A DNA stretch of 64,000 bases from Sporomusa termitida (GTDB taxonomy: Bacteria; Bacillota; Negativicutes; Sporomusales; Sporomusaceae), in contig NZ_CP036259.1 of the NCBI RefSeq assembly GCF_007641255.1, positions 2,790,001-2,854,000 of the forward strand, given 5' to 3'. Of the stretch, positions 14,433 through 52,999 are shown one piece after another. The notes under the pieces were generated by a model. The model worked only from the letters and a program-made list of their open reading frames with translations, made no database searches and had not been told where the DNA came from. The translations under genes were made by a program, and so were the position numbers. How positions within the stretch are numbered: the stretch's first letter is position 1; each line of letters begins with the position of its first letter.

Positions 14433-15287
14433 TTATTTATTATTTATTTCTATAATACATTGATTTATAAAATCATCACATGTAGCTAACCCTTCAATAA
14501 ACGCTGCCTCCCAATAATTTTCCCCAAATTCTTGCCTTTTCGAATTTGCTTCCTCGATTAACCATTGACTAATATCGTGCCCAGATATCGGCGGATGATT
14601 ATGTGCTACGATAGAGCGTTTGATTTCCGAAGCTACACTGGCGGTTTGTACTTTATATCTATTCTTTAGCTTGAGTATCTCAAAATGTGATAAAACAATT
14701 GTAAATAATGTACTATTTATAGTTCCTGGATTAAAAATATTAAAATTCGCTACGGGAACATCGTCAGAATAAACTACTATTGTGCTTAAATACCTATCAG
14801 TAGGTAAATTTTCATAATATAAATTTATAGTGCCGCGGTGATTACTTGATGTAAGCCAGTTATCATTCCGAATGTTATTACATTCAAAACAACAAGGAAT
14901 TAAATTTATAGGCATTACGCTGTACTCCGGAAAGGTATCCTTAGGCATATAATGATCAAATGTTGTTGGTGCATTAATACCGCAATACTGGCACTTTCCA
15001 CGTAGAGTAGGATTTTGAGCTTCTAAAATTTTTGTTTTAAGTGCTGCTAAAGGTTTTGTTGTACTTTCATAACAATTAAGTAAGGCACTTTTATCAGTTT
15101 GATTATAAACTACCGAATTTACAACTGAAAGGTCCATTTTATTTTGTATATAATCTTGATAGCGATTCTGTATGTCCGGTGCCAATACAAGTAATGCAGA
15201 CTTAACTTCTGGTTTTCTCTTTGCCTGCATTATATCCGAAAAGTAATTATAACAGCAATTATCTGCCAGCGGGCTTAGATTTTTCAT
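14433..15287 (-). CDS. HNH endonuclease, PtuB-like partner of the ATPase
   Basis: 284 aa from the ATG at 15287, preceded by GTGAGGATAATAATA; the frame is open to 15302. The HNH core is at about residues 95-145: CQYCG, then TFDHYMPKD, then LIPCCFECN with the final Asn in NNIRND. It therefore contains two zinc Cys pairs around the Asp-His core. The remaining C-terminal half is helical. It overlaps the end of the upstream ATPase gene by about 29 bp, which implies translational coupling. This gene order (ATPase, then HNH nuclease) and the motif are those of Septu (PtuA-PtuB), where the ATPase gates the nuclease. Assignment to a Septu subtype is not certain. Confidence 0.8.
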   Translation of the reverse strand: MKNLSPLADNCCYNYFSDIMQAKRKPEVKSALLVLAPDIQNRYQDYIQNKMDLSVVNSVVYNQTDKSALLNCYESTTKPLAALKTKILEAQNPTLRGKCQYCGINAPTTFDHYMPKDTFPEYSVMPINLIPCCFECNNIRNDNWLTSSNHRGTINLYYENLPTDRYLSTIVVYSDDVPVANFNIFNPGTINSTLFTIVLSHFEILKLKNRYKVQTASVASEIKRSIVAHNHPPISGHDISQWLIEEANSKRQEFGENYWEAAFIEGLATCDDFINQCIIEINNK

Positions 15288-17157
15288 TATTATTATCCTC
15301 ACTAATTAATGCCTTAACTATCATTTTTGCATTAAAGCTTAGTCTTTTTTCAAATAATGACAATATGTCCTCGTAACTCAGCTGTTTAGCTAATTGAATA
15401 AAATAGTCTTTGTGAATACTTGGAACTGCGCCTACATAAAAAATATCATTTGTAATAGTTGTAAGATTTTCTCCAAAGCACTCTATTCCAGGAACGCGAA
15501 CAGATGGAACGTTGCCAATTCGTTCAATTATATGAATATACTTTGAAGGAACTTCTTGGGCAATAACTGGCGAATGAGATGCAATTATTGCATACGATTC
15601 AAACGTATTCAACAGTTTATACAGTGCTCTAACGACTTTGGCTATCGCGTTAGGGTGCAAATGGGTTTCTGGTTCATCAAAAAGCAAAAGAGAATCTTTC
15701 TCAATATATGCAATAACTTGGGTCATAGTAGCAAACACCATGTTCTGACCGGAACTATATTTAGCAAGATCACTAACTGTCAAGTTTGATTCAAGGGAAA
15801 AAAGCTCCTCATCTTCCATAATGTCACAAAGAATATCTTTCCAGAAATTAACACGCTTATGCCTTATAATAGTAGCTTTTGCCTTGTTTAGCTCAGTAAC
15901 TACTGCCTGCAAATCCAAATATCCTTGCCTATTACGAACTCCACAATATTTATAACTTCCATAATTTTGATGTTTTTTTTCAGGTTTAGAGAATTCATCA
16001 AATATACTATATGAAATAGCAATAATCTTACTAAAGCTTGGTCGGTCAGGGAAAAAATTATCTTTATGTTGGACATTCCCGCTAATTATTTGAGCAAGAC
16101 TTGCAAGTAATTGTGTTTTACCGGTTCCATTTTTTCCAATAAGGAGGTTTATTCTATATGGCAAATAATCATTTTCATTAAAGTTGAACTTAATTATATG
16201 AAGTTCTTCAGCTTTTGAAAGTTTATAAGAGAACGTAAAATCAAAATTCTTATCTATTTCATTTCCCTGAATATTTATATAGTTTTTTCCTTCTTTGAAA
16301 GCTTTTTCTGCTTCACTATATCGTAAAAGCGATTGTGAAAAGGCTTCCTCTGATTTGAATTCAGAAGCTAATGCTTCGTTGATAGCGATATCGTTTAAGG
16401 CATCTAAAACCTGAAATCTTAAATCTAAGCATATAGCAGATATTTCTTTATAGTAATCAACAGATTGACCAAGGGAACAATATGATGGATTCAATCGATA
16501 GAAGTGATCTGGTAGATCTGTTGTATCTCTACCTTTTTCTAATATTTTCACATCGCCTAAAGTGTATTTTTTACTACGAGATATAAAATAGCTAGCATGA
16601 AATAAAGTTTGATATCCATAGTCATTCCAAGAATCCCCCATAAGTTGAATACAGGGAAACCTTGCCTCCTGAGGAAGCTTCCCTTTCCACTCTACAGTGT
16701 AGAAAGGAATGCCTACAGTGTCGCTTACTTCTTCTATTTTTATTATCCTATACACTGGTGTACCCACAATAAAACCAGCCATATCGACAGTATAACCACT
16801 GTACTCCAAGTATTCACTATAACAATAAAGACGCTCATTTAATGTATCAATATTTAATTGCACGTCTGGATGAATGGTTAGCTCTAAAAAATCTATAAAT
16901 ATTTGGTCATCACAATCGGATAACTTTAGATAGTTCCATAACAATTCTTTTTCTGACCAATCGTAGTTAGATATCATGTGTTGTACGATATCTTCCTCCG
17001 CATTTCTAAAACGAGGGTCGGTTGATGGCATAGTCTTTAGATCCCAAATTCGAGTTAAAAAATCAATTAACTCACTTTCGCCATAAAATGGAACTGACTG
17101 CTTGGTTAATATATCTATTATATTTTGTCGTATGCTTGGTATGATCATATGTTTCAC
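15259..17157 (-). CDS. AAA (OLD/ABC-type) ATPase, PtuA-like, with AbiJ-NTD3-like N-terminus
   Basis: 632 aa. Walker A is GKNGTGKT (341-348), Walker B LLLFDEPETHLHP (about 495-507) and the H-loop is ASHSP. Together these are the AAA_15/AAA_21 signature of ATPases in Septu, retron and OLD-like defence. Residues 1-100 (FLTRIWDLKTMPSTDPRF...DIVQH...HPDV) resemble AbiJ-NTD3, a domain found at the front of abortive-infection ATPases. Residues 130-300 are unassigned. I keep the GTG at 17157 because AAAGGAAA sits at the right distance; an ATG at 17148 is possible. Co-transcribed with the HNH gene, it is probably the phage sensor and regulator of the nuclease. Confidence 0.82.
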   Translation of the reverse strand: MKHMIIPSIRQNIIDILTKQSVPFYGESELIDFLTRIWDLKTMPSTDPRFRNAEEDIVQHMISNYDWSEKELLWNYLKLSDCDDQIFIDFLELTIHPDVQLNIDTLNERLYCYSEYLEYSGYTVDMAGFIVGTPVYRIIKIEEVSDTVGIPFYTVEWKGKLPQEARFPCIQLMGDSWNDYGYQTLFHASYFISRSKKYTLGDVKILEKGRDTTDLPDHFYRLNPSYCSLGQSVDYYKEISAICLDLRFQVLDALNDIAINEALASEFKSEEAFSQSLLRYSEAEKAFKEGKNYINIQGNEIDKNFDFTFSYKLSKAEELHIIKFNFNENDYLPYRINLLIGKNGTGKTQLLASLAQIISGNVQHKDNFFPDRPSFSKIIAISYSIFDEFSKPEKKHQNYGSYKYCGVRNRQGYLDLQAVVTELNKAKATIIRHKRVNFWKDILCDIMEDEELFSLESNLTVSDLAKYSSGQNMVFATMTQVIAYIEKDSLLLFDEPETHLHPNAIAKVVRALYKLLNTFESYAIIASHSPVIAQEVPSKYIHIIERIGNVPSVRVPGIECFGENLTTITNDIFYVGAVPSIHKDYFIQLAKQLSYEDILSLFEKRLSFNAKMIVKALISEDNNNEKSKPAGR

Positions 17158-17471
17158 TCATTTCCTTTCAAGATTCTTCAAATTAGTAATTAAAGAAAGA
17201 TACAACACTCTATTACTCTATTACCCTATTATCTTTCATCTAAATCTTGTTTACGTCTTTATGATCGGTAACAATTCTAATAAGGACCAACTTAATCTCA
17301 TATATCCCATTGCCCAACCACAATACCCTTGTATTACCCCACATTAAGATTTCATTGTTGACACGCTTCGCACGCTCTTATATTATTAACAGAAGAGGAG
17401 TTCACATAGAATTTTCTCTTTAATGCGCGGTATGTAATTAAAAATAAATCACTTTCATACCGCTAAAAATT
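17158..17471. other. Divergent intergenic region between ATPase and glycosylase genes
   Basis: 314 bp, AT-rich, between the minus-strand ATPase and the plus-strand glycosylase. It must contain both promoters. Several TATTAT/TATAAT-like hexamers are present, but none has a clear -35 partner, so I do not assign a promoter. Confidence 0.5.
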
Positions 17472-18125
17472 ATGATATTGAAAAATTTTTTTATTGACTG
17501 GTACACAACTAATGGTCGTTACTTCCCCTGGCGTGCAGTAGACGAAACTGCATATAAAATCTTAGTTACAGAGATTTTCTTAAAACAAACCCCGGCTTCT
17601 TCTGTAGCTAGAATTTGGAATGATTTTTTTTATTTCTACCCGGATCTATATACTTTGGCAATTGCTGATAAAGACAGCCTGTATTCACTAATTAAACCTC
17701 TTGGATTTGCAAATCAACGAGCAGAGTCTTTAAAAGCAACGGCTTCCTGGCTGATTGAAAACTACCAGGGGATTATTCCAAGCAATATAGATAGCTTGCT
17801 GCAAATCCCAAGCGTAGGTATATACACAGCCAAAGCGGTCTCCTGCTTTGCTTTTGGCAAGCATGTTGAAATTGTAGATACAAATGTACTACGTTTTTTT
17901 TCAAGATATTTTGCAATTAAAGTAGCACCAGACATAAGAAGAAATAAAACCGCATGGGATCTAGCAAAAGATATACTTCCACTCGGTCATGATGGAGACG
18001 GAATCGCAAGAAAACACAATTACGGCATTCTTGATTTTACAGCTCAAGTGTGTAAAACTCGGAAACCGTCGTGTTCGAATTGTCTACTAGCTTCTTCCTG
18101 TCTAAGTATTCAATCTATTAATTAG
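17472..18125 (+). CDS. G/T-mismatch-type DNA glycosylase (Mig/MutY-like, HhH-GPD, 4Fe-4S)
   Basis: 217 aa. The helix-hairpin-helix is LLQIPSVGIYTAKAV and the catalytic Asp lies in IVDTNVLRFF. The 4Fe-4S loop is complete (C-x6-C-x2-C-x5-C at the C-terminus). At the position where endonuclease III has its Schiff-base Lys there is Tyr (GIYTAK), as in the thymine glycosylase Mig.MthI. FPWR, TEIFLKQT and NQRAESLK also match that enzyme closely. Mig removes T from T/G mismatches made by deamination of 5-methylcytosine and is encoded beside an m5C methyltransferase. The same arrangement is seen here, with 14 bp to the methyltransferase TTG. It therefore probably protects the methylated sites of this restriction-modification system. 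It is too short for full-length MutY (about 350 aa). Confidence 0.85.
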   Translation: MILKNFFIDWYTTNGRYFPWRAVDETAYKILVTEIFLKQTPASSVARIWNDFFYFYPDLYTLAIADKDSLYSLIKPLGFANQRAESLKATASWLIENYQGIIPSNIDSLLQIPSVGIYTAKAVSCFAFGKHVEIVDTNVLRFFSRYFAIKVAPDIRRNKTAWDLAKDILPLGHDGDGIARKHNYGILDFTAQVCKTRKPSCSNCLLASSCLSIQSIN

Positions 18126-18139
18126 GGAGAGAAATCTAC

Positions 18140-19474
18140 TTGGATAAAAAACCACTTATTTCCATTGATCTATTTGCAGGAGCTGGAGGATTAACACAAG
18201 GCTTCAAAAGCGAAGGTTTTAAAAGTCTATATGCAAATGATTTTGATAAAGCAGCACTAGAAACTTTTTCTCTTAATCATCCCGATACCATTACTTCATC
18301 GACTCCTATAGAAGAAATTAAACCATCCGATATAAGAAAGCAGTTGGGTCTTGCCAAAGGAGATTTGGATGTATTACTGGGTGGTCCACCCTGTCAAGGA
18401 TTTTCAACTTATGGCAAACGAGATCCTAGCGATCTCCGGAATAAATTACCCCAGTATTTTCTGGACTTTCTTGAAGAATTTGAACCAAAAACATTTGTTA
18501 TCGAAAATGTAACTGGTATTCTAACTATGGGAAAAGGAAAAGTCATTGAGAATATTGTAAAACGGGCCGAACAGATAGGGTACGGAGTTACTGTTGAAGT
18601 TTTAGATGCTGCTGAGTTTGGCGTTCCTCAATACAGAAAACGCGTGTTTATTCTAGGCGCTTGGAATAATAAAATAATATCTACGCCCGTACCCACACAT
18701 AAAATACAAGGTCAAAACGGCTTTAAGAGAAAACAGTTACTGGAACAACCTACTACTATCGAAAAAGAAATACAAACCGTCAAACCTACAATAACCGTAC
18801 GGGATGCTATTTCGGATTTACCTGTAGAAGTCCTGCAGCCTAAAAATACTCACATATCAATCTCCTATTCACAAAACCCAGTTAGCAATTATCAACTAGA
18901 AATGCGTGATGGTTCTTCAATGCTTACCCATCACTCAGCGAAACAAATGTTAGGGATTCGGCGCCTCCGCCTGGCCTTGTTGCGCCCTGGCGATTACGGT
19001 ACAAAAATAAAGGCAAGAATTTTTGAAGATGGTTTACCAGAAGAGTTGGTTGACGAATTATTAGGTGGAAAGGGATTACGGAGTTTAGATCACTGCAGAA
19101 CCGAAGATCGGGTAAAGGAACTGGAATTAAGAAGAATATTACTCCAAGGTCATGTCGATATTGAGGAAGTACTTAAGTCTTTAGATTCCGGAGGATTTGC
19201 CAATAAATACCGGCGTCTAGATTGGAATACTCCTTCGCATACTCTGGTAGCACATATGGCCAGGGATTGTTCTGATTTCGTCCATCCAGAAATAGACCGC
19301 TTCATCTCTGTACGCGAAGCGGCTAGATTACAATCCTTTCCAGATAAGTATTATTTCCATGGCTCGCAATTTAGCCAGTTTAAACAAATTGGCAACGCGG
19401 TCCCGCCAAAGCTGGGGGCAGGCGTTGCAAAGGCTATTAAATCATTTCTTAGAGCTCTGCACAATATTGAATAA
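18140..19474 (+). CDS. DNA (cytosine-5-)methyltransferase of a type II R-M system
   Basis: 444 aa with the ordered m5C motifs: I FAGAGG (12-17), IV GGPPCQGFS with catalytic Cys85, VI IENV (121-124), VIII QYRKRVF, IX near REAARLQSFP, and X QIGNAVPP. The start is a TTG preceded by AGGGAGAGAAATC. The region between VIII and IX (about 180-360) is the target recognition domain. It forms an operon with the upstream glycosylase. Its 3' end overlaps the convergent endonuclease gene by 26 bp, which ties their expression. The target site cannot be read from the sequence, although the endonuclease type suggests a CCGG-containing site. Confidence 0.93.
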   Translation: MDKKPLISIDLFAGAGGLTQGFKSEGFKSLYANDFDKAALETFSLNHPDTITSSTPIEEIKPSDIRKQLGLAKGDLDVLLGGPPCQGFSTYGKRDPSDLRNKLPQYFLDFLEEFEPKTFVIENVTGILTMGKGKVIENIVKRAEQIGYGVTVEVLDAAEFGVPQYRKRVFILGAWNNKIISTPVPTHKIQGQNGFKRKQLLEQPTTIEKEIQTVKPTITVRDAISDLPVEVLQPKNTHISISYSQNPVSNYQLEMRDGSSMLTHHSAKQMLGIRRLRLALLRPGDYGTKIKARIFEDGLPEELVDELLGGKGLRSLDHCRTEDRVKELELRRILLQGHVDIEEVLKSLDSGGFANKYRRLDWNTPSHTLVAHMARDCSDFVHPEIDRFISVREAARLQSFPDKYYFHGSQFSQFKQIGNAVPPKLGAGVAKAIKSFLRALHNIE

Positions 19475-20252
19475 ATGCATCGGGTGATTCTAACATATTC
19501 ACAGTATGAATACGCCTGCCACTTTTAGTTGTCTTGGGTGACGGAACTGTCCGGCTATTGTAACTGAAACATACATTAAAATCACCTCGTTCCTCAATTA
19601 AATCCCTTTTATGCGTTGGTTTTTCTGGCACTCCAAATTCTCCACGGTTGGTAAAATCTCTAGGTGGGTTTGATTTAACATCTAGCGTCCAAAGAATACT
19701 TGTATACCCAGCCTGCATCATTATCCTACTGGCGGGAACATCATCAGATATTCTCTCCGCGAGACTAGCCTTAACGTGTAGTCCTCCCAAAATACCGTAC
19801 CCATTCAGGAGGCCCTTTCTTTCACCTTGCTTCTCAATTAAAACATCTAACTTGCTTTTACTCACAACAACCGACAAACCCATTCTATCCATAGCTTGAG
19901 CTTTATTCTTCAATAAGGGGACTAGTCTAATCCCCATCTCGCTTAACGCTGGATTATATGCCTGCGCTATAAACATTTCCAGAGCATCTCCACTCGCTCT
20001 TACCCAGCTTTGGAACTGATTTCCTCCATTATCAACCGAAATATAAGTACGATAAATAACATGGTGCCATAAATCTGATATATTTTCACTCGGGCAACGT
20101 TGGATTGCATAAATTAGAGTATCAGCTATTGCTTCTCTTTTCTTTGGTGAATCATTCAGCTTTTGAATAAAATAGTTTCTAATTGCTTGGTAATCCTGTT
20201 CCGACATGTTAACCAGTTCAACCGTATCTTTCTTAGAAACTTGAAGTATCAT
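19449..20252 (-). CDS. Type II restriction endonuclease, BsaWI-like
   Basis: 267 aa from the ATG at 20252, preceded by AAAGGTGAAATT; a GTG at 20270 is also in frame. The stretch KSKLDVLIE...GGLHVKASLAERISDD looks like the PD-(D/E)XK-type core of BsaWI-related enzymes (the CCGG-cutting group), where the Asp in KLDV and HVK would bind the metal. Length fits a typical orthodox type II enzyme. It is convergent with the methyltransferase, with overlapping 3' ends. The BsaWI assignment rests on remembered motif likeness; the restriction-endonuclease role is firmer because of the neighbour. Confidence 0.75.
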   Translation of the reverse strand: MILQVSKKDTVELVNMSEQDYQAIRNYFIQKLNDSPKKREAIADTLIYAIQRCPSENISDLWHHVIYRTYISVDNGGNQFQSWVRASGDALEMFIAQAYNPALSEMGIRLVPLLKNKAQAMDRMGLSVVVSKSKLDVLIEKQGERKGLLNGYGILGGLHVKASLAERISDDVPASRIMMQAGYTSILWTLDVKSNPPRDFTNRGEFGVPEKPTHKRDLIEERGDFNVCFSYNSRTVPSPKTTKSGRRIHTVNMLESPDAFIQYCAEL

Positions 20253-20351
20253 AATAATTTCACCTTTCACCTTTATAATCGAGGATATGTATAATTCTAT
20301 AAATATTGTTTATAATTCTTCCAATTTCGCGAAATCCCTGCCCTTTCTAAC

Positions 20352-20484: not shown

Positions 20485-22083
20485 TCACAGTATTTCCATA
20501 ATTCCAACCCCCGATTGCAGCACAAACTCTACTTGCACCAGATTGATTACCTTGATCCGCTCTACCAGCATGCCGAATAGCTCTTCGTCAAATTCCCCTA
20601 TCGTATCCATGGACCGCAATACCTCAGTTATCTCCTTCATTCTGCCAAAAGTATCCTGGCGCGCGATTTCCGCCACTGTAACACTCGCCCTCTTGTTTTT
20701 CAGTTCCTCAATCCTGGCACCAATCCGGCAATATTCCTCACTGTAAATGGTATCATCAATCCCTGTTCTTAAATTCAATTTGACCAGTGCGGCCAGCTCC
20801 GCGTGCAGTTCTTTTAGTTCCGAGTCAATCAGCGCCAAATCCACCATACTGGTCTGTTCACGAAAGGCTATCTCAATATTCTCCAGCATGCCTGAAATGA
20901 GTGTGTCTTTATCCACTAAAAGTTGGTTCACAACCCGCACGAACGCCTCCTGCAGTTTTTCCTCGTCAAGAGTCGTCATATCGCAGGCTTTTTTGCCATC
21001 CTGCATTCGCGTCCGGCATATCCAGATCGGTTTCTTGTATTTACCAGTACCCCAGTATTTTCTGGTAAACTTCCAACCGCATGCGCTGCAAACGATTTTC
21101 CCGGAAAAAGGATACTGGCTCGTATAACGGCTGCGGTTTTTATCCCCACCCGCTAACTTACTGCGTCGTTCCATTTCCATCTGCACCGCTTGAAAGGTTT
21201 CCTTCGAAATAATGGCTGGGTGGCTGTTCTCAACAAAGTACTGCGGGACCTGGCCCTCGTTTTTTACCCGCTTATGGGTAAGAAAATCCACGGTAATCGT
21301 CTTTTGCAACAAGGCATCCCCGGCGAGCTTTTCGTTTTGCAACATTTGTCTAATAACCGACTCATGCCAAACAGCGCCGCCGGTCGCGGTAAGAATTCCG
21401 TCAGCCTCAAGCCCTTTTTTAATTTTCCTAAGACCCTTGCCCTCCACCAAATACTCCTTAACTATCCGCCGCAGATGAGCGGCCGCCTGCTCGTCAATAA
21501 TGAGTTCACCGTTTTCGTCCTTGTCAAAGCCCATGAATTTCTTGTGATTGACGCGTACCTTGCCCTGCTGAAACCGCCGCGTAATGCCCCACCGACTGTT
21601 TTCACTAATCGAGCGGGACTCATCCTGAGCGAGTGAACTCAAGATCGTCAACAAGACCTCACCCTTAGCATCCAGCGTGTCGATATTTTCCTTCTCAAAA
21701 TATACTCCTATGCCTTTATCTTTGAGCATTCTTACATACTGCAGACAATCTAATGTGTTGCGGGCAAACCGGGAAATGGATTTGGTGATGATCATGTCAA
21801 TTTTACCTAATAGGCAGTCGTCGATCATCCGGTGAAAGTCCGTACGTTTTTTGGTATTGGTGCCGGTAATGCCTTCATCGGCGTAAATGCCGGCAAATTC
21901 CCATTCCGGGCGCTTTTTAATATGTTCTTCGTAATAACTGACCTGCGTTTCGTAGCTACTGAGCTGTTCTTCCGTATCAGTACTGACTCGGCAGTACGCA
22001 CATACCCTTTTCTTTGCCGCTATATCCAGTCCCCGGATTACCTGCATCGGTTTAGCCGGGATTACAGAAACCACTCTACTCAT
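20485..22083 (-). CDS. Large serine recombinase (phage integrase), copy 1
   Basis: 532 aa. The N-terminal resolvase domain has catalytic Ser34 in CAYCRVSTD, with the conserved ITKSISRFARN arginine stretch. The recombinase domain follows, from about residue 190. A zinc-ribbon comes next (CSACGWKF...CRTRMQDGKKAC), and a coiled coil at about 420-470 (LKELHAELAALVK) corresponds to the motif that controls integration versus excision. All elements are intact. GAGGAGAATGT precedes the ATG. The gene is 14 bp after recombinase copy 2. It is expected to catalyse attP x attB integration of the prophage, alone or with the second recombinase. Confidence 0.92.
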   Translation of the reverse strand: MSRVVSVIPAKPMQVIRGLDIAAKKRVCAYCRVSTDTEEQLSSYETQVSYYEEHIKKRPEWEFAGIYADEGITGTNTKKRTDFHRMIDDCLLGKIDMIITKSISRFARNTLDCLQYVRMLKDKGIGVYFEKENIDTLDAKGEVLLTILSSLAQDESRSISENSRWGITRRFQQGKVRVNHKKFMGFDKDENGELIIDEQAAAHLRRIVKEYLVEGKGLRKIKKGLEADGILTATGGAVWHESVIRQMLQNEKLAGDALLQKTITVDFLTHKRVKNEGQVPQYFVENSHPAIISKETFQAVQMEMERRSKLAGGDKNRSRYTSQYPFSGKIVCSACGWKFTRKYWGTGKYKKPIWICRTRMQDGKKACDMTTLDEEKLQEAFVRVVNQLLVDKDTLISGMLENIEIAFREQTSMVDLALIDSELKELHAELAALVKLNLRTGIDDTIYSEEYCRIGARIEELKNKRASVTVAEIARQDTFGRMKEITEVLRSMDTIGEFDEELFGMLVERIKVINLVQVEFVLQSGVGIMEIL

Positions 22084-22097
22084 ACATTCTCCTCTTT

Positions 22098-23729
22098 CTA
22101 TTGCAACCCATGAATACCCCGTTCTTTTACGAACTGTTGCTCTATAGCCAGTCCATTTTTCAGTTCAAAAACTAAGTGCGTTGGCGTGAGCACTTGTACC
22201 CGCTCCACCAACGCACTGCATATTTCTTCATCAAACTCTTCCATAATATAAACTTGACCTTCCAGAACCGCCACAATTTCCTGCGTCCTGGCCTTAACCT
22301 CAGTCAGCTTGCTGTCATCGCCGCTCAACTCATTCTTCTGATTACGTAATTTCTCCAATTGCTGTTTCAGCCTTTCATATTCCGCCTGAAAATCCAGAGT
22401 CTCACCGCTGTCCTTGATTTGCTTGCGAATTAGGACTTTCATTTCCTCGACGACCTTGTCTATTGCCAGTTCAAGCTTACGATCTTGCCCGCCTATGCTC
22501 TCGACCCGCAGCCCTTTCTCTACATTGTCCAGGAAGCGTTTCAGCAAAAAATCCTTATTTTTATAGAGCTTGTTGAACGCCCGCACAAATACTGCCTTGA
22601 GCGTAATATCATCGACACCTTTCATAGAGCAAGCCTCTTTCCCTTCCTTAAAATAAGTGCGGCACTGCCAAACAATCTGCTTGGTTGGCCCATTACTGTT
22701 CCAAGACCGACGTGTGAAAGTCGCCCCGCAATGACCGCAAACCAGCTTGCCGCTGAAAGCATACCTATTGAGATATTTCACCCTGTCGCCCGGCAGGTTC
22801 CCATATTGTATGGCACGTTCCGCCATCAGCCGCTGCACCAGGTCAAACTCCTCCCTGGTGATAATGGCTTCATGGTTGTTTTGCACCCGGTACAGGGGCA
22901 ATTCGCCTCTGTTCTTTCTCTTCCGGTGTGTCAGGTGATCTTCCGTGAAGGTCTTTTGCTGGACTAAGTCGCCGCAGTATTTTTCGTTGGTAAGAATTCC
23001 TCGTACCACAGACGCCTGCCATTTCGCTGATCCCGTTACCGTTCGGATATTCATTGCGGTCAGTAGGTCAGCTATCATCTCGGTGCCTTTGCCGGCAATG
23101 TACTCACGAAATATCAACTTTACAATCCGGGCCTCTGCCGGGTTCACCTGTAATTGACCGTTTTCGTCCAGGTCATAGCCAAGAAACCGGCTGGAAATAA
23201 CAACAACCTTGCCCTTCTCGAACTTCTTCCGGTAGGCCCACTTTATATTTTCGGATGTGCTTCGGCTCTCTTCCTGGGCGATAGAGGCCAACACGGTCAT
23301 TAGCAGTTCACTCTCGATGCTTAATGTATTGATGTTTTCGCGTTCAAAGAACACCGCCACACCTAGCTCCTTTAGATAACGGACGGTCTCCAGGCAGTCT
23401 GCTGTATTGCGGACAAACCGGGAAATGGATTTGGTGATGATCAGATTGATCCGCCCGGTCTGAGCGTCTCTAATCATCCGGTTAAATTCGGTTCGCTTTT
23501 CTTTTTTCGTGCCAGTAATGCCGCCGTCCGCATAAATACCTGCAAAATCCCACTCAATTTTCTGCTGAATGTACCCGGTATAGTACGCGACCTGGTTCTC
23601 ATAGGAATCCATCTGATCAGAAGACGCCGAGCTAACCCGACAGTAGGCGCATACCTTGAGTCTGGTCTCTAGCGGCGCCTCGGACATTCCCGCCTTTGCT
23701 TTGGGTAAAATGGTCAGAACCTTCTTCAT
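22098..23729 (-). CDS. Large serine recombinase, copy 2
   Basis: 543 aa from the ATG at 23729 (AAAGGGGGGAGAGCG before it; the frame is open further upstream but across a terminator). Catalytic Ser33 is in CAYCRVSSAS, and ITKSISRFVRN is conserved. The recombinase domain, a zinc-ribbon (CGHCGATF...CRTYFKEGKEAC) and a coiled coil (FQAEYERLKQQLEKLRNQ) follow. It is clearly homologous to copy 1 but well diverged, so the pair is not a recent duplication. Such tandems recall ccrA/ccrB of SCCmec, where both proteins are needed. It is co-transcribed with copy 1. Confidence 0.92.
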   Translation of the reverse strand: MKKVLTILPKAKAGMSEAPLETRLKVCAYCRVSSASSDQMDSYENQVAYYTGYIQQKIEWDFAGIYADGGITGTKKEKRTEFNRMIRDAQTGRINLIITKSISRFVRNTADCLETVRYLKELGVAVFFERENINTLSIESELLMTVLASIAQEESRSTSENIKWAYRKKFEKGKVVVISSRFLGYDLDENGQLQVNPAEARIVKLIFREYIAGKGTEMIADLLTAMNIRTVTGSAKWQASVVRGILTNEKYCGDLVQQKTFTEDHLTHRKRKNRGELPLYRVQNNHEAIITREEFDLVQRLMAERAIQYGNLPGDRVKYLNRYAFSGKLVCGHCGATFTRRSWNSNGPTKQIVWQCRTYFKEGKEACSMKGVDDITLKAVFVRAFNKLYKNKDFLLKRFLDNVEKGLRVESIGGQDRKLELAIDKVVEEMKVLIRKQIKDSGETLDFQAEYERLKQQLEKLRNQKNELSGDDSKLTEVKARTQEIVAVLEGQVYIMEEFDEEICSALVERVQVLTPTHLVFELKNGLAIEQQFVKERGIHGLQ

Positions 23730-23756
23730 CGCTCTCCCCCCTTTCTTCCGGTATAG

Positions 23757-23777
23757 AAAAAACCGCCCACAGGCGGT
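23757..23777 (-). terminator. Terminator between the small recombinase-like gene and the recombinases
   Basis: Minus-strand stem ACCGCC/GGCGGT (23762-23777) with a four-base loop, followed by T6 (23757-23762). It lies after the stop at 23786 and before the ribosome site of recombinase 2, so transcripts from the small gene's promoter must read through it to express the recombinases. Confidence 0.75.
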
Positions 23778-23785
23778 CACTTGAT

Positions 23786-24079
23786 TTATCGCCAGCAAAA
23801 CATGAGCTGGCCGTTGTTGTGCTCGATAATGTCTGCTATTTCCTCAACCGTCATCGAAGCGATCTTTCTTTCGGTGACCCCTTCAACGAAGATGGCAGCT
23901 TCCGGCTGTCCGCCGCGCTTCACATCTTCGGCTAGTTCATACCATTCGTTCCTCTCGCTCATTAGTTCGGTGGGGGCCGAATTGACCCGACAGTAGATGC
24001 ATACCTTTGAGTTAGCCTTTAACGGCACACTGTTTATTGCAGGCTTGTCCTGAGATGAAATGGTTAGCGTCCGTTTCAT
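23786..24079 (-). CDS. Small recombinase-N-terminus-like protein lacking the catalytic serine
   Basis: 97 aa. The first 50 residues align without gaps to the start of recombinase 2 (for example KVCIYCRVNSA against KVCAYCRVSSA), but the catalytic Ser33 is Asn. The rest (VKRGGQPEAAIFVEG...IADIIEHNNGQLMFCWR) does not continue the resolvase fold and is unrecognised. It cannot cut DNA by the serine mechanism. It could be a decaying gene fragment or a recombination regulator that pairs with the recombinases. GGGAGGTGATC precedes the ATG, and a family promoter lies at 24108-24136. Confidence 0.7.
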   Translation of the reverse strand: MKRTLTISSQDKPAINSVPLKANSKVCIYCRVNSAPTELMSERNEWYELAEDVKRGGQPEAAIFVEGVTERKIASMTVEEIADIIEHNNGQLMFCWR

Positions 24080-24107: not shown

Positions 24108-24136
24108 ATGCTAGCTCTGTTGTCACCACAAAGCAA
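24108..24136 (-). promoter_or_regulatory. Prophage family promoter P1
   Basis: Minus strand TTGCTT, 17 bp, TAGCAT, with GAGC before the -10. The transcript would start about 25 bases before the 97-aa gene. It is one of six related sites in the prophage and the only one whose -10 is TAGCAT. Confidence 0.65.
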
Positions 24137-24218
24137 GTCAATTGTGATGAGGAAACATATGGATTCTGATAAAAAATAGGGCTTGGAATAATTACCAAGC
24201 CGTCGTCATTACTGCTCC

Positions 24219-24398
24219 TTAAATATTTTCTTTCTGTACCAAGCGGATGACCAACTCCCCTTCTCCTTCTTCCACTGCAACATGGTTTCCGGTTTTAAAC
24301 CCCAGCCCTTGCAGCCACTTTCCTTGCAGTATGATACAAGGCACATTCAGTTTGGAATACGCCGCCGATGAATAAATCTTTAAAATGCGTTTGCCCAC
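24219..24398 (-). CDS. SymE-like small protein (AbrB-fold toxin family)
   Basis: 59 aa, GTG start at 24398 preceded by AGGGGGACTG. The sequence around VPCIILQGKWLQGLGFKTG followed by a GELVIRL strand matches the SymE toxin family (PF08845 type), which has a SpoVT/AbrB-like fold. In E. coli SymE is an SOS-induced, nucleic-acid-compacting toxin held down by an antisense RNA. Here it has its own family promoter (24423-24451) and sits next to the recombinases. No antisense RNA can be proved from sequence. It may be a lysogeny accessory gene. Confidence 0.7.
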   Translation of the reverse strand: MGKRILKIYSSAAYSKLNVPCIILQGKWLQGLGFKTGNHVAVEEGEGELVIRLVQKENI

Positions 24399-24422: not shown

Positions 24423-24451
24423 ATGTTAGCTCTGGTTGTGCTGCATTGCAA
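24423..24451 (-). promoter_or_regulatory. Prophage family promoter P2
   Basis: Minus strand TTGCAA, 17 bp ending in AGAGC, TAACAT. It lies 25 bases before the GTG of the SymE-like gene, after allowing for the ribosome site. Confidence 0.65.
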
Positions 24452-24462
24452 GTTAAAGCTGG

Positions 24463-24603
24463 TTACTGGGCAAAACTTTTCCTATTCTCGGCATCAATAC
24501 GCTGGAATTCTGCCGGCGTGATCAACCCTTTGTTCAACAGTTGCTTTAACAGATACTTGCTAATTAAATACTCCATGTTTGTTTTTTCAGGAGTTACCAT
24601 CAT
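24463..24603 (-). CDS. Short helical protein (SHOCT-like) often beside recombinases
   Basis: 46 aa from the double ATG at 24603/24600, with GGAGGGGCG before it. The sequence YLISKYLLKQLLNKGLITPAEFQRID is a SHOCT-like short helical hairpin. Similar small genes occur next to large serine recombinases in Firmicutes mobile elements; its role is unknown. Confidence 0.6.
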   Translation of the reverse strand: MMVTPEKTNMEYLISKYLLKQLLNKGLITPAEFQRIDAENRKSFAQ

Positions 24604-24627
24604 CGCCCCTCCATTTCTTGTAAAAGC

Positions 24628-24715
24628 GGCTGTCGCAGCAAGGGAAAATCCCACTATATTATTGTTGCTTTTACATCAAACACTATATGGCAGAAAAATT
24701 CTTAGTGCGACAGCC
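24628..24715. repeat. Hairpin element with 10-bp inverted ends
   Basis: GGCTGTCGCA (24628-24637) is inverse-complementary to TGCGACAGCC (24706-24715). GTAAAAGC (24620-24627) and GCTTTTAC near 24667 add a further repeat. It follows the 218-aa gene on the minus strand, so it may be a large terminator; a MITE-like origin is possible. Confidence 0.5.
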
Positions 24716-49237: not shown

Positions 49238-49420
49238 TTATATAATTGCTATCCGGCCCGCTGCGATTTCTTCCTCGATCTCGCTTTCAGTATACATTAC
49301 AATCTCGGTATCCCGAGGGTCTTCGGAGGCCAGTACGCAAGCGTCATGCCATTTGCCAACCACCTTATAGTTCTCTTTCCAGCCTTTCAGTGTAAGAAGG
49401 GTTCCTTTAGCGTATTTCAT
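49238..49420 (-). CDS. Small acidic protein, paralogue A
   Basis: 60 aa from the ATG at 49420 (CAGGAGGTTAAAACG before it). KYAKGTLLTLKGWKENYKVV...ESEIEEEIAAGRIAII. It aligns with the 61-aa protein at 49858-50043 along its whole length (MKYxKGT...V...D...V..TE.EIEEx...G). A small beta-barrel-like, SH3-type fold is possible. It has its own family promoter and terminator. Function unknown. Confidence 0.65.
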   Translation of the reverse strand: MKYAKGTLLTLKGWKENYKVVGKWHDACVLASEDPRDTEIVMYTESEIEEEIAAGRIAII

Positions 49421-49451: not shown

Positions 49452-49480
49452 ATGTTACCTCAAAAAGCACAGTTAATCAA
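49452..49480 (-). promoter_or_regulatory. Prophage family promoter P3
   Basis: Minus strand TTGATT, 17 bp with TGTGCTTTTTGAGG, TAACAT, then GAACA. The transcript would carry the 60-aa gene only. Confidence 0.7.
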
Positions 49481-49558
49481 CTCATTTCTTCTATTTTCAT
49501 CGATTATCTCCTTTTTTCTCGCTATTACTTTTTTTATTTATTAGGAGGTCATCGTCCC

Positions 49559-49804
49559 ATGAAAGCAACAGTCTATAAAGGCACTTTCCTAAGCCACGCC
49601 CTTCCTATCATTGCTTTTGATCGCATCTCTATCGCCGCCTTTGAGGGGATACTTTCCGTAGCCAGTTTTGGCACTGCCGAGAATTTCCGCATTACGGCGT
49701 ATATTGTAGAACCCAGCCAAGCCTACCTTACTGCTGAGGAATGGCGTAATCTCGTTTTGAAAGTGCAAGCCTCCCCCGATAAGCTGGTGGACATTGTATT
49801 CTAG
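49559..49804 (+). CDS. Small plus-strand protein of unknown function
   Basis: 81 aa starting at 49559 after TTAGGAGGTCATCGTCCC, a very good ribosome site. It is one of only two plus-strand genes in the prophage. The sequence is soluble (FDRISIAAFEGILSVASF, then AYLTAEEWRNLVLKVQ) and not recognised. The frame is open far upstream, but the ribosome site sets this start. Confidence 0.6.
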   Translation: MKATVYKGTFLSHALPIIAFDRISIAAFEGILSVASFGTAENFRITAYIVEPSQAYLTAEEWRNLVLKVQASPDKLVDIVF

Positions 49805-49816
49805 TATCCGAACACG

Positions 49817-49843
49817 AAAAAAGGAAGCCGTGTTTGGCTTCCT
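49817..49843 (-). terminator. Terminator of the 61-aa gene
   Basis: AGGAAGCC (49822-49829) pairs with GGCTTCCT (49836-49843), followed on the minus strand by T6. It may also help end the plus-strand 81-aa gene. Confidence 0.75.
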
Positions 49844-49857
49844 GTAGTCTTTATTCG

Positions 49858-50043
49858 CTATTTTTTTATTGTAAGCCAGCCTTCTTCAAGCCCTTCCTCG
49901 ATCTCATCCTCTGTAAACAGAACCTCATCGTTTTCATCATCTTGATATGCCAGTACATAACTGCCGTTTACGATATTGAGCCTGTCGACTACCCTATACA
50001 ATTCACCGTTCGATTCGAAAATGGTTCCTTTGGGGTATTTCAT
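49858..50043 (-). CDS. Small acidic protein, paralogue B
   Basis: 61 aa, paralogue of the 60-aa protein 440 bp away: KYPKGTIFESNGELYRVVDRL...LFTEDEIEEGLEEGWLTIKK. The ATG comes one base after the previous stop (TAAGATG), so it is translated with the 52-aa gene. Function unknown. Confidence 0.65.
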   Translation of the reverse strand: MKYPKGTIFESNGELYRVVDRLNIVNGSYVLAYQDDENDEVLFTEDEIEEGLEEGWLTIKK

Positions 50044-50044
50044 C

Positions 50045-50203
50045 TTACACTCTCCAACTTTTATAAAAATTTTCCTGGAGGCGTTCCATGCGGATTCTTT
50101 GTATCAGGAGAACGTCTTTTTCTGTTACTTGCCTGGACGGCACAAATATATTTAATTTTTGAAGCTCTTTAGAAACCAGCTTGCGGGGGTATCCAAGAAG
50201 CAT
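50045..50203 (-). CDS. 52-aa basic protein
   Basis: ATG at 50203 preceded by GGGAGGAGAGACGGA; 52 aa, basic (LLGYPRKLVSKELQKLNIF and RIRMERLQENFYKSWRV). First gene behind promoter P4 and followed directly by paralogue B. Not recognised. Confidence 0.6.
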   Translation of the reverse strand: MLLGYPRKLVSKELQKLNIFVPSRQVTEKDVLLIQRIRMERLQENFYKSWRV

Positions 50204-50238
50204 GTTCCGTCTCTCCTCCCTGTTCTTTCGTTGTGTTC

Positions 50239-50267
50239 ATGTTAGCTCTGAAAGCGCAGGAAATCAA
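50239..50267 (-). promoter_or_regulatory. Prophage family promoter P4
   Basis: Minus strand TTGATT, 17 bp ending AGAGC, TAACAT, then GAACA. It drives the 52-aa and 61-aa genes. Confidence 0.7.
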
Positions 50268-50299
50268 GCGTTATCTTTCCTTTTTTAGACTTTATCTCA

Positions 50300-50548
50300 C
50301 TATTGCTCCATATTTCTCGCTATACCTGCCTCCATCAGACCTTCCAGCAATCGTCGACTTTTCTCTTCTATTGTCCGGGCGTTAATATCAATGCCGAAAC
50401 CGGCAAATTTGAACACGTTACCAGCCACATAGGCGATATATTCCTCGATGTAAGGCAATGTATCCCGGTGAAAGCACTCATTCCACATTTCAGCGACAAC
50501 CGTTTCCGGCGATCCACTATATACTTTGTTATCTATCATTACTTGCAT
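50300..50548 (-). CDS. 82-aa protein of unknown function
   Basis: ATG at 50548 after AGGTGGTGATAACA; 82 aa, with an acidic, helical C-terminus (RTIEEKSRRLLEGLMEAGIARNMEQ). Directly downstream of the cyclotransferase gene (5 bp gap), so part of the amidoligase operon. Not recognised. Confidence 0.6.
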   Translation of the reverse strand: MQVMIDNKVYSGSPETVVAEMWNECFHRDTLPYIEEYIAYVAGNVFKFAGFGIDINARTIEEKSRRLLEGLMEAGIARNMEQ

Positions 50549-50553
50549 TGTTA

Positions 50554-51030
50554 TCACCACCTAAAATTATAATTCGGCTTGTATCGCTCTTGTTCCGGGA
50601 AAGCCGATTCCTTGATTGCCCGATGGAGAATGCCGATATCAAAACCCGCTTCCTGGTAGCCTTTCCGAATAATGTAGTAATATCGGTTGCCTGGCGTACC
50701 AAGCGGAAACCCCTCGTTCATCACGTACACCATCGCCTTGACCCGCTCGCCCTTAAATGGTACTGTCACGATTTCCTTGCGATAGAGGCGTGGAAAGCCT
50801 TCATAGCGGTCCAGCGCCACCTCGTCGGCTGGCTCAATCCCCCAGAGCAGCACCGGCACTATACCGGCGGCGTCTGGTTCAATGTTCATCACTGCATTGC
50901 CTTCCATACCCCGAAAGCTTGCTCTGTATCCCCTGAGCTTCGCCGGTCCCAATACCTGCGCGGTTGGGCACCGCATCGCCATCTGTTCAATATTCAAATT
51001 GCTTCCGTAAGCCAAATAGATTTTTTTCAA
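50554..51030 (-). CDS. Gamma-glutamylcyclotransferase-like (AIG2 family) protein
   Basis: 158 aa from the TTG at 51030, which sits after GGAGGAATATAG and gives the family N-terminus KKIYLAYGSNLN. The catalytic Glu fits the ALDRYEGFPRLYRKE stretch. The fold removes gamma-glutamyl amine groups as 5-oxoproline. Genes of this family pair with amidoligases in phages and bacteria; one would make and the other break an amide linkage on a peptide or protein. That pairing is seen here, with the amidoligase directly upstream. Confidence 0.85.
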   Translation of the reverse strand: MKKIYLAYGSNLNIEQMAMRCPTAQVLGPAKLRGYRASFRGMEGNAVMNIEPDAAGIVPVLLWGIEPADEVALDRYEGFPRLYRKEIVTVPFKGERVKAMVYVMNEGFPLGTPGNRYYYIIRKGYQEAGFDIGILHRAIKESAFPEQERYKPNYNFRW

Positions 51031-51088
51031 ACTATATTCCTCCACTCTTTTATTGAGGCGGGCGGCAAAGCCGCCCTGCCTTATTTTC

Positions 51089-51979
51089 TTATGACGCCGC
51101 GTATCTCCAGGCGCTATTGCCTTCCAGCTTTTCTAAAAGGTGCTGTCTGGCCGTTTTGAACTCGTCGCCGATCAGGCCAAGGCGCAGGAGCCAGGTCCTG
51201 AAGGTGAACTTTTCGTTCGTAGTGGCCGTTTTTCTGGCTGACGCTCCCCTTTGTGCGATTGCCTGGTGGCTGATCGCCAGGCAAAGCTGGATGTATGCCT
51301 TTATTTTCCCGGCGTGAGTGGTGGAATTAAAAAGCCTGAATTCCACCGTCCCTTTCGTAAAGACTGAGTGGAAATTCAGGCCATGATATCTGCTTTTATG
51401 ATAATGAATGTTGGTTCCGCCACTATAGGGTTTATACCAAAGTTTTTTTAATGCTTCCATGGTCGCAGGCTTAGTGCGATTGATGTCTTCTACCAAGCTG
51501 CCATTCACCTTTTGGCAATATTTTCTCATCCGTTCAAGGTCAACATGGAGGGCTTTGTACAGCATGTCCTCCTTGCTTGCCATCAGGTTGAGCAGGTTGC
51601 GCAGCGTTTTGGCGTTATGGTTGGCGGCGTCGACATGGATGTGAATGCCGCAGGAGGAGTTCACAAAGGCCCCACCCTTCCGAAGTCTCCTGACCAATTC
51701 CTGGATGGTTTCGATATCCTCATATCGGCATTTCGGCGAAACCACCTCGACTTGACGTTCATCGTCGTTGGCGAACATCCGTACCCCGTTTACTTTTTTC
51801 TGGGCCGTAATACTACCGTCTCTAACCACCAGCCAGGTGCGGCCTTGGTTATCGGGAACCTTATATGTTCCATACGAGTTATTACTGCTTGTACCAAAAT
51901 AGGCGGCGATGGTTGTTGCTGCTTGGTATCTGGTAATTCCGGTAAGCTCAATTTCGATGCCAAAGTACTGGTTTTTCAT
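51089..51979 (-). CDS. Amidoligase-family enzyme (glutamine synthetase-like fold)
   Basis: 296 aa. The family signature residues are intact: E9 and E11 in FGIEIELTG, E79 in QVEVVSP, H113 and H115 in CGIHIHVDA, E213 and R215 in TVEFRLFNS. These enzymes (PF12224) are predicted ATP-dependent ligases that add amino or amine groups to carboxylates, with metal bound by the Glu/His set. AGGAGGTTAGCAGT precedes the ATG, behind family promoter P5. With the cyclotransferase it may modify a host or phage protein or cell wall. Confidence 0.88.
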   Translation of the reverse strand: MKNQYFGIEIELTGITRYQAATTIAAYFGTSSNNSYGTYKVPDNQGRTWLVVRDGSITAQKKVNGVRMFANDDERQVEVVSPKCRYEDIETIQELVRRLRKGGAFVNSSCGIHIHVDAANHNAKTLRNLLNLMASKEDMLYKALHVDLERMRKYCQKVNGSLVEDINRTKPATMEALKKLWYKPYSGGTNIHYHKSRYHGLNFHSVFTKGTVEFRLFNSTTHAGKIKAYIQLCLAISHQAIAQRGASARKTATTNEKFTFRTWLLRLGLIGDEFKTARQHLLEKLEGNSAWRYAAS

Positions 51980-52011
51980 ACTGCTAACCTCCTGTGCTTT
52001 TGGTCACTGTC

Positions 52012-52040
52012 ATGTTACCTCCAAAAGCACATGAAATCAA
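52012..52040 (-). promoter_or_regulatory. Prophage family promoter P5
   Basis: Minus strand TTGATT, 17 bp with TGTGCTTTTGGAGG, TAACAT. It lies 33 bp before the amidoligase ATG and is nearly identical to P3. Confidence 0.7.
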
Positions 52041-52165: not shown

Positions 52166-52999
52166 TCAGACGGTGTCGGCAGGCGCATCGCTACCTGTGG
52201 ACAAACGCGCCTTTCGTCTTTTTATCGCCTCATGCACCTGTTTTTCCGTACGGAAAGAGCCGTTGCCATCCAACCGGCCAAGGAATAGCTTCCGGCTGGC
52301 ACTGTACTCCTGACCAATAAAACCGAGCCGGAGCAGCCAAACCCGGAATGTGTATTTCTCATTGTCTGTTTCCTTTTCATTTGGCGTAGCATGTCGCTGC
52401 ATCATAGCCATGGCATTTACTGCAAAGGCAAATTGAATATAGGCGGCGATGGCCTCTGGATTCAGCGTTGCAGCAAACCAGCGTAAGGTGATCGTATCCT
52501 GAGTAATCGCAAGACCCGGCGAGACTTCGCTACCTGCCACTTCCAAAAAATCCTCAATCGTTTTGAGACGAACGGCGTTAATTTTCTTCACTATCTCAGG
52601 GATCATAAAGGGTTGGCCAGTGCCCATCGCTTTAGCAATCAGCCGTTCCTTGGCTGATAGGATATTGACAAGGTTCTGCAGCGACCTCCCCCAGTGGCCA
52701 TCAATCGAGAGCGTTACTGCCGCTCTCCCTGCCGCTTCTATCCCATTCTCTTCAAGGACTTTCAAGACTGCGAACACTTCGGCCACATTGTCTAGTTTCA
52801 CTCCTTCGGTAACAACTGCGCCAGCCTTGTCAACAAGCCACTCGCGTCCGCTGCCGTTAGGCTCGGTGATTAGATACCCAAATCCCCGCGTGCCTTGGTA
52901 AACCGCCTGTGTGCCAAAATGGGCGGCAATCAGAGCGGCTACCTCCTTTCGCCCGCGACCAGTCACCTGCATATGAAACTTAAAATCGTGCTTTTCCAT
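52166..52999 (-). CDS. Amidoligase paralogue without active-site residues (pseudoenzyme)
   Basis: 277 aa. It aligns to the intact amidoligase next door from residue 1 to 30 with no gap (FKFHMQVTGRGRKEVAALIAAHFGT) and again at TLRWFAATLNPEAIAAYIQF and EKYTFRVWLLRLGFIGQEY. Yet E9 is His, E11 is Gln, the HIHVDA histidines are replaced (TLSIDG) and the EFR glutamate is Thr; only the Arg remains. The frame is intact with a good start (GGGAGGGCTTAT) and its own promoter, so it is likely kept for a non-catalytic function, perhaps as partner or regulator. Confidence 0.8.
   Translation of the reverse strand: MEKHDFKFHMQVTGRGRKEVAALIAAHFGTQAVYQGTRGFGYLITEPNGSGREWLVDKAGAVVTEGVKLDNVAEVFAVLKVLEENGIEAAGRAAVTLSIDGHWGRSLQNLVNILSAKERLIAKAMGTGQPFMIPEIVKKINAVRLKTIEDFLEVAGSEVSPGLAITQDTITLRWFAATLNPEAIAAYIQFAFAVNAMAMMQRHATPNEKETDNEKYTFRVWLLRLGFIGQEYSASRKLFLGRLDGNGSFRTEKQVHEAIKRRKARLSTGSDAPADTV

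Follow-up and report, generated by a model that had tools for sequence, protein, structure and literature searches.

A probable cargo gene on the front end of a large serine recombinase gene in a Sporomusa termitida prophage

The window analyzed here, a 64,000-nt stretch of Sporomusa termitida DNA (contig NZ_CP036259.1, positions 2790001–2854000), contains a prophage, read from its ORFs as one of the tailed-phage type. Next to two large serine recombinase genes, recB and recA, it carries a 97-aa ORF (23786–24079, minus strand) with Asn33 in place of the nucleophilic serine. This ORF is probably a cargo gene of the phage (a "moron"), lying between the promoter region of recB and the intact recB, on a recB front end. 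What the sequence itself shows is homology, gene order across relatives, and a terminator-like hairpin; the mechanism built on these is a proposal. The promoter-like box, the ribosome-binding region, and the first ~40 codons of the small gene would be a recB front end, and the last ~56 codons would be an independent small phage gene, ending in its own terminator. As a self-contained cassette (terminator-box-gene-terminator), the unit would have its transcription start at the box, with the front half serving mainly to start translation. recB and recA would be made from read-through, either from the box or from the late operon, and the insertion would lower recombinase expression unless termination is suppressed. 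The back half most likely has an accessory role unrelated to recombination. What looked like a puzzling "dead recombinase" would thus be a cargo gene that captured the front end of an integrase, and a single step could let an accessory gene alter integrase expression.

The genes concerned all lie on the minus strand of the prophage, in the order SHOCT-domain gene (24463–24654), SymE-like gene (24219–24398; 59 aa, PF08845), 97-aa ORF, terminator-like hairpin, recB, and recA. The first two were recognized by domain search, and the SHOCT-domain gene adjoins the cassette slot in most relatives examined. The initial annotation described two full, adjacent recombinases, and domain search and direct reading bear this out: recB (22098–23729, 543 aa) and recA (20485–22083, 532 aa) both match the Resolvase, Recombinase, and Zn-ribbon domains of Pfam and carry the catalytic residues Ser33 and Ser34, respectively, as expected of large serine recombinases. 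In the window, a gap of 14 nt separates them, with no further recombinase relative inside. Relatives of recB were found at E 1e-100 or better in 38 of 200 genomes of the class, and a count by eye gave 20 places where two recB-type matches start no more than 3 kb apart on the same contig. Beside recA, at 14433–20270, there are defence-like genes for an AbiJ-like ATPase, a cytosine methylase with a BsaWI-like endonuclease, and an HNH protein.

The 97-aa ORF joins two unlike parts. Its front half, residues 1–40 (23960–24079, minus strand), is a recB-like start, as judged by tblastn and the upstream alignment, and includes the Asn33 that had been reported and that the sequence confirms. By tblastn, 18 of these 40 residues (45%) are identical to the prophage's own recB; residues 41–50, read directly, have zero identities to it. 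The resemblance is above chance (E 3.4e-5 in a search of the whole own genome), so the likeness earlier claimed for the first 50 residues is real, and its extent is about 40 residues. The same 40 residues are 46–50% identical to the recBs of relatives and about 31% to the recAs of two relatives. As its own recB is not a nearer match than the others, the front half would be an old or a fast-changing fragment. A catalytically dead third recombinase, as the ORF had been called, is an overstatement that we reject: no Pfam recombinase domain was found in the ORF by domain search, the nucleophile is replaced, and only ~40 residues are recombinase-like, against a Resolvase model of 145 positions. Nor is the remainder new sequence. 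The back half, residues 42–97 (23786–23956, minus strand), belongs, according to homology searches, to an independent small phage protein family present elsewhere. A structure model of the small ORF was too poor for use (mean pLDDT 46.7).

The recB neighbourhood was compared in eight loci with recB identity of at least 63%: the window, L012 (genome G015), L003, L015 (genome G023), L016, L017, L174, and L175. The contig of L003 also appears as L139 and L173, and that of L175 as L053. The small gene lies at recB in the window, L012, and L003 and is missing from the recB-adjacent place in the other five, so it is not conserved beside the paired recombinases, the point on which the initial annotation had asked for a check. 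In those five loci, a block consisting of a terminator (partly masked by N in L017), ATATGTTTCCGCATCA, the box, and a ribosome-binding site directly precedes recB; the same block precedes the small gene in the other three. We compared 120 nt of upstream DNA by local alignment against a background of 300 shuffles. The DNA upstream of the window's small gene matches that upstream of recB at 81 of 100 positions in both L015 and L174 and at 79 of 100 in L016, with scores of 55.5–59.5 versus shuffle maxima of 13.5–18.5. Against the recB upstream of L015, the small-gene upstream DNA of L012 gives 89/109 and that of L003 84/108. The DNA now upstream of recB itself in the window, L012, and L003 scores 8.5–9, below the shuffle maxima of 12.5–16.5.

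Outside these eight loci, G011, from the host's family, keeps the order of SHOCT-domain gene (73%), SymE-like gene (72%), two boxes, and broken recB-type gene but lacks the small gene. In G046, G021, and G036, a box lies upstream of a recB relative, which is partial in G036, with a hairpin and T-tract, by reading, between box and recombinase; a SHOCT match was obtained for G046 and G036 but not for G021. As the gene order lacking the small gene has the wider distribution, its insertion looks derived. A scan of 49 loci (L173–L221) for short recombinase-front frames returned L192 and L193, which are the two open chimeras of the window and G015, together with L202 and L203, which we read as broken recombinases; the L003 chimera, in L173, was missed by the filter. 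The cassette slot before recB holds a GGDEF diguanylate cyclase gene in L016 (8464–9129); most of this gene is retained in L174, and remnants of its ends in L015, L017, and L175.

A hairpin scan places a terminator-like hairpin of 7 pairs with a T-tract (23755–23778, minus strand) between the small gene and recB, and it is also present in L012 and L003. A terminator separating the small gene from the recombinases, and the position of the latter downstream of it, had both been proposed and both hold. The 66-nt region around the hairpin is no more stable than its shuffles (z −0.46). A second terminator-like hairpin with a T-tract follows the SymE-like gene (24171–24201, minus strand; hairpin scan and locus comparison), and Rfam gave no match in the window. 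The small-gene stop is 56 nt from the recB start, terminator included, which leaves 25 nt before recB. This is too short for a promoter, so recB and recA would be expressed by read-through; we predict that, with the recombinases behind a terminator, read-through could set their level.

The box before the small gene (24108–24136), TTGCTT-N17-TAGCAT, is a conserved motif of the same kind as that preceding recB in relatives, and locus comparison reveals a conserved block, ATATGTTTCC(G/T)CATCA (24145–24160, minus strand), between it and the upstream terminator. It fits a −35/−10 promoter with 17-nt spacing, from which we infer a promoter role. The stock promoter scan flagged none on the minus strand here; for this cassette, therefore, the terminator-like hairpins are seen, and the candidate promoter is taken from the conserved box. 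Pattern searches located four more copies in the window, before the SymE-like gene (24423–24451), before a small ORF (49452–49480; 60 aa if started at the ATG at 49420, 71 aa with an earlier start), before a 52-aa ORF (50239–50267), and before an amidoligase gene (51089–51979) followed by a GGACT gene (50554–51045), where the box (52012–52040) has an 11-bp inverted repeat around its −10. A refined pattern, TTG[AC]..N13GAG[CG]TA[AG]CAT, matches the window five times, each time on the minus strand and 24–35 nt before the start codon of one of these four genes or of the small gene, and has 0 matches in 60 simulated windows, a comparison in which the pattern had been tuned on the window's own sites. 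An earlier pattern, allowing up to 3 mismatches, also gave five window matches, two of them exact, against an expectation of 1.47; five matches were also reached in 3 of 100 shuffles.

The refined pattern gave 20 matches in 11 of the genomes of 80 relatives, and a reversed control pattern gave 6. Matches in G042 and G055 look like chance. Five of six matches in the own genome lie inside this prophage, and the box occurs in 2 of the 120 viral loci fetched among listed matches to the ATATGTTTCC block, both being contigs of this phage group. Inverted repeats of at least 7 bp accompany 3 of 10 box sites (11 bp at the amidoligase, 12 and 7 bp in G015); no such dyad is present at the SymE, small-gene, or recB boxes, nor at the two other window copies. 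The boxes before the amidoligase (with GGACT) and the small ORFs, at 49452–52040, also occur in G015. A diverged amidoligase relative of 277 aa (52166–52999), just before the intact amidoligase, scores below threshold (E 0.0011; 19.3 bits versus 22) and has a 91% identical copy in G015. The presence of the box before the small gene, the SymE-like gene, and the amidoligase suggests that cargo cassettes may be under common control, making the phage-wide box a candidate cargo-gene regulon. It is tempting, though speculative, to extend this to an array of box-gene-terminator cassettes, lying before the recombinases and at other places in this phage group and all under one phage regulator acting at the box, in which a cassette placed behind the recombinase box turned the recombinases into read-through genes. 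If true, cargo capture would directly retune integration and excision.

The back-half family also occurs apart from recombinase fronts. In G023, it stands alone as a 55-aa ORF with its own ATG, 57% to residues ~42–97, between genes for a PF12224 amidoligase and a PF06094 gamma-glutamyl cyclotransferase. G048 has a weak relative in a 68-aa ORF (E 1.6e-6), with a PF00589 tyrosine integrase at a distance of about 2 kb. The back half was matched in 4 of 380 genomes of the class, in 1 viral contig, and in 4 of 398 genomes of a phylum sample; the last comprise the own genome and three weak matches (E about 5e-4), set aside because they fall inside a 443-aa frame of another kind. Searched whole at an E limit of 0.01, the 97-aa protein found zero matches among phage records; it was matched in 6 of 200 relatives, some of these to recombinase fronts only. 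Given the 20 close recB-type pairs versus this rarity of the back half, the small gene is not a fixed partner of recombinase pairs. A partnership with the amidoligase was likewise rejected. A survey found 33 amidoligase places, 30 with a locus examined and three without, and the small gene adjoins the amidoligase in 1 of the 30, that of G023; between the window's own amidoligase and GGACT there is no small gene. In the own genome (G000) and G015, the amidoligase is about 26–27 kb from the small gene, in the same prophage by position. L038 has a partial 18-residue match near an amidoligase (E 0.008).

Could the ORF be a decaying, functionless pseudogene? Only three chimeric copies are known (window, L012, and L003), giving three pairs for dN/dS. 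Over its 56 codons, the back half yields 0.14, 0.14, and 0.17, values indicating that it is under purifying selection, which counts in favour of the initial annotation. The front half yields 0.39, 0.39, and 0.31. Since the first 40 codons of recB give 0.14, 0.46, and 0.28 (whole-gene recB, about 0.08–0.10 versus L012 and L003), the looseness of the small gene's front is in part shared by recB itself; it is not clearly looser than the recB start and does not by itself show loss of function. In favour of decay, the L012 gene has an 8-residue in-frame gap, and that of L003 has a stop codon in its front half, with no in-frame ATG, GTG, or TTG left before the conserved part, so the L003 gene may not be expressed; a sequencing error is possible. 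Against it, the frame is open in the window and L012, and all gaps among the three copies are multiples of 3, as expected if the frame counts more than the letters. The initial annotation would have taken absence or frameshifting in related prophages as decay: the front-half gaps, the L003 stop, and the five loci without the gene partly fit that, and the kept back half and the gap lengths do not. We regard a pseudogene as quite improbable.

A different proposal makes the small protein a directionality factor or inhibitor for recA and recB, expressed just ahead of them. Its size suits such a role, GirX, the factor for a Bacillus serine recombinase, having 42 aa according to the available part of PMC5595907, and the gene adjoins recombinases in three loci with its back half under purifying selection. 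The stretch of G023 with the lone back half also retains, some 6 kb further along, a 43-residue remnant resembling recA, and that genome has a second prophage with recB and recA (L015), where the protein could act in trans. Such a factor should be kept with its recombinase, however, and the gene is present in three of the eight close loci; its back half is far rarer in the class than recB relatives, and the weak G048 relative is near a tyrosine integrase. This patchy occurrence, together with the gaps and the stop in the front half and the lone back half of G023, disfavours directionality control and tells against the dead recombinase with a directionality or silencing role that had been suggested; we hold the proposal to be decidedly improbable. 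Alternatively, a complete third recombinase may have lost its middle, so that its front became joined to a small gene downstream, and the ORF would be what is left. Here, one may point to G011, where a recB-like front is fused in frame to a recA-like middle, and to the more than two tandem recombinase-type genes in the sister loci G046, G021, and L176. Yet an additional full recombinase at the small-gene position is missing from all eight close loci and from G011, and we find this origin rather unlikely. The one point on which it departs from the cargo-gene reading is how the front end came to be duplicated.

Morons are phage accessory genes with their own promoter and terminator. The small gene is like them in having its own promoter-like box and terminator-like hairpin and in being an insertion between stretches that adjoin each other in relatives; it is unlike them in having displaced an integrase gene, whose promoter region, start, and first 40 codons it occupies. 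It would best be filed as a moron variant, with expression in the lysogen predicted. The box resembles the start-associated and extended start-associated sequences of Cluster K mycobacteriophages, as presented in the available part of PMC3203893: both are repeated elements, in part with inverted repeats, found close before the starts of some phage genes. The box has another sequence, it looks like a −35/−10 promoter, and a dyad of at least 7 bp accompanies 3 of the 10 copies tested; the 13-bp repeat GGGATAGGAGCCC given in that part is absent, by direct reading, from the box stretches. In GirX/GirC of the gin element of Bacillus cereus, a very small protein is also encoded with large serine recombinases, and GirX has been tested and controls excision (PMC5595907, available part); unlike the case described there, co-occurrence of the small gene with the recombinases is not kept here. 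The window pair matches the Ccr models, and CcrA, CcrB, and CcrC are likewise paired large serine recombinases, but every match is far below the NCBIfam cut-off (e.g., 114.8 and 117.1 bits versus 900), and the window pair lies in a prophage. Among open-licence PMC papers, we found no published account of this arrangement.

Other tandem loci do contain a real third relative without the catalytic domain. This is a protein of ~340–360 aa with Recombinase and Zn-ribbon domains and no Resolvase domain (L260:4234–5310, minus strand; L261:4864–5937; L176:4687–5703). In G046 and G021, its gene is flanked by the recB- and recA-type genes; in the viral contig L176, it follows a recB-type gene. The G046 protein matches 3 of 200 class genomes, namely G046 itself, G036 (74%), and G021 (73%). 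The in-frame fusion of G011 (L259:10818–11321, minus strand) joins residues 1–88 of a recB-like front to residues 213–308 of a recA-like middle, as if tandem recombinases had recombined.
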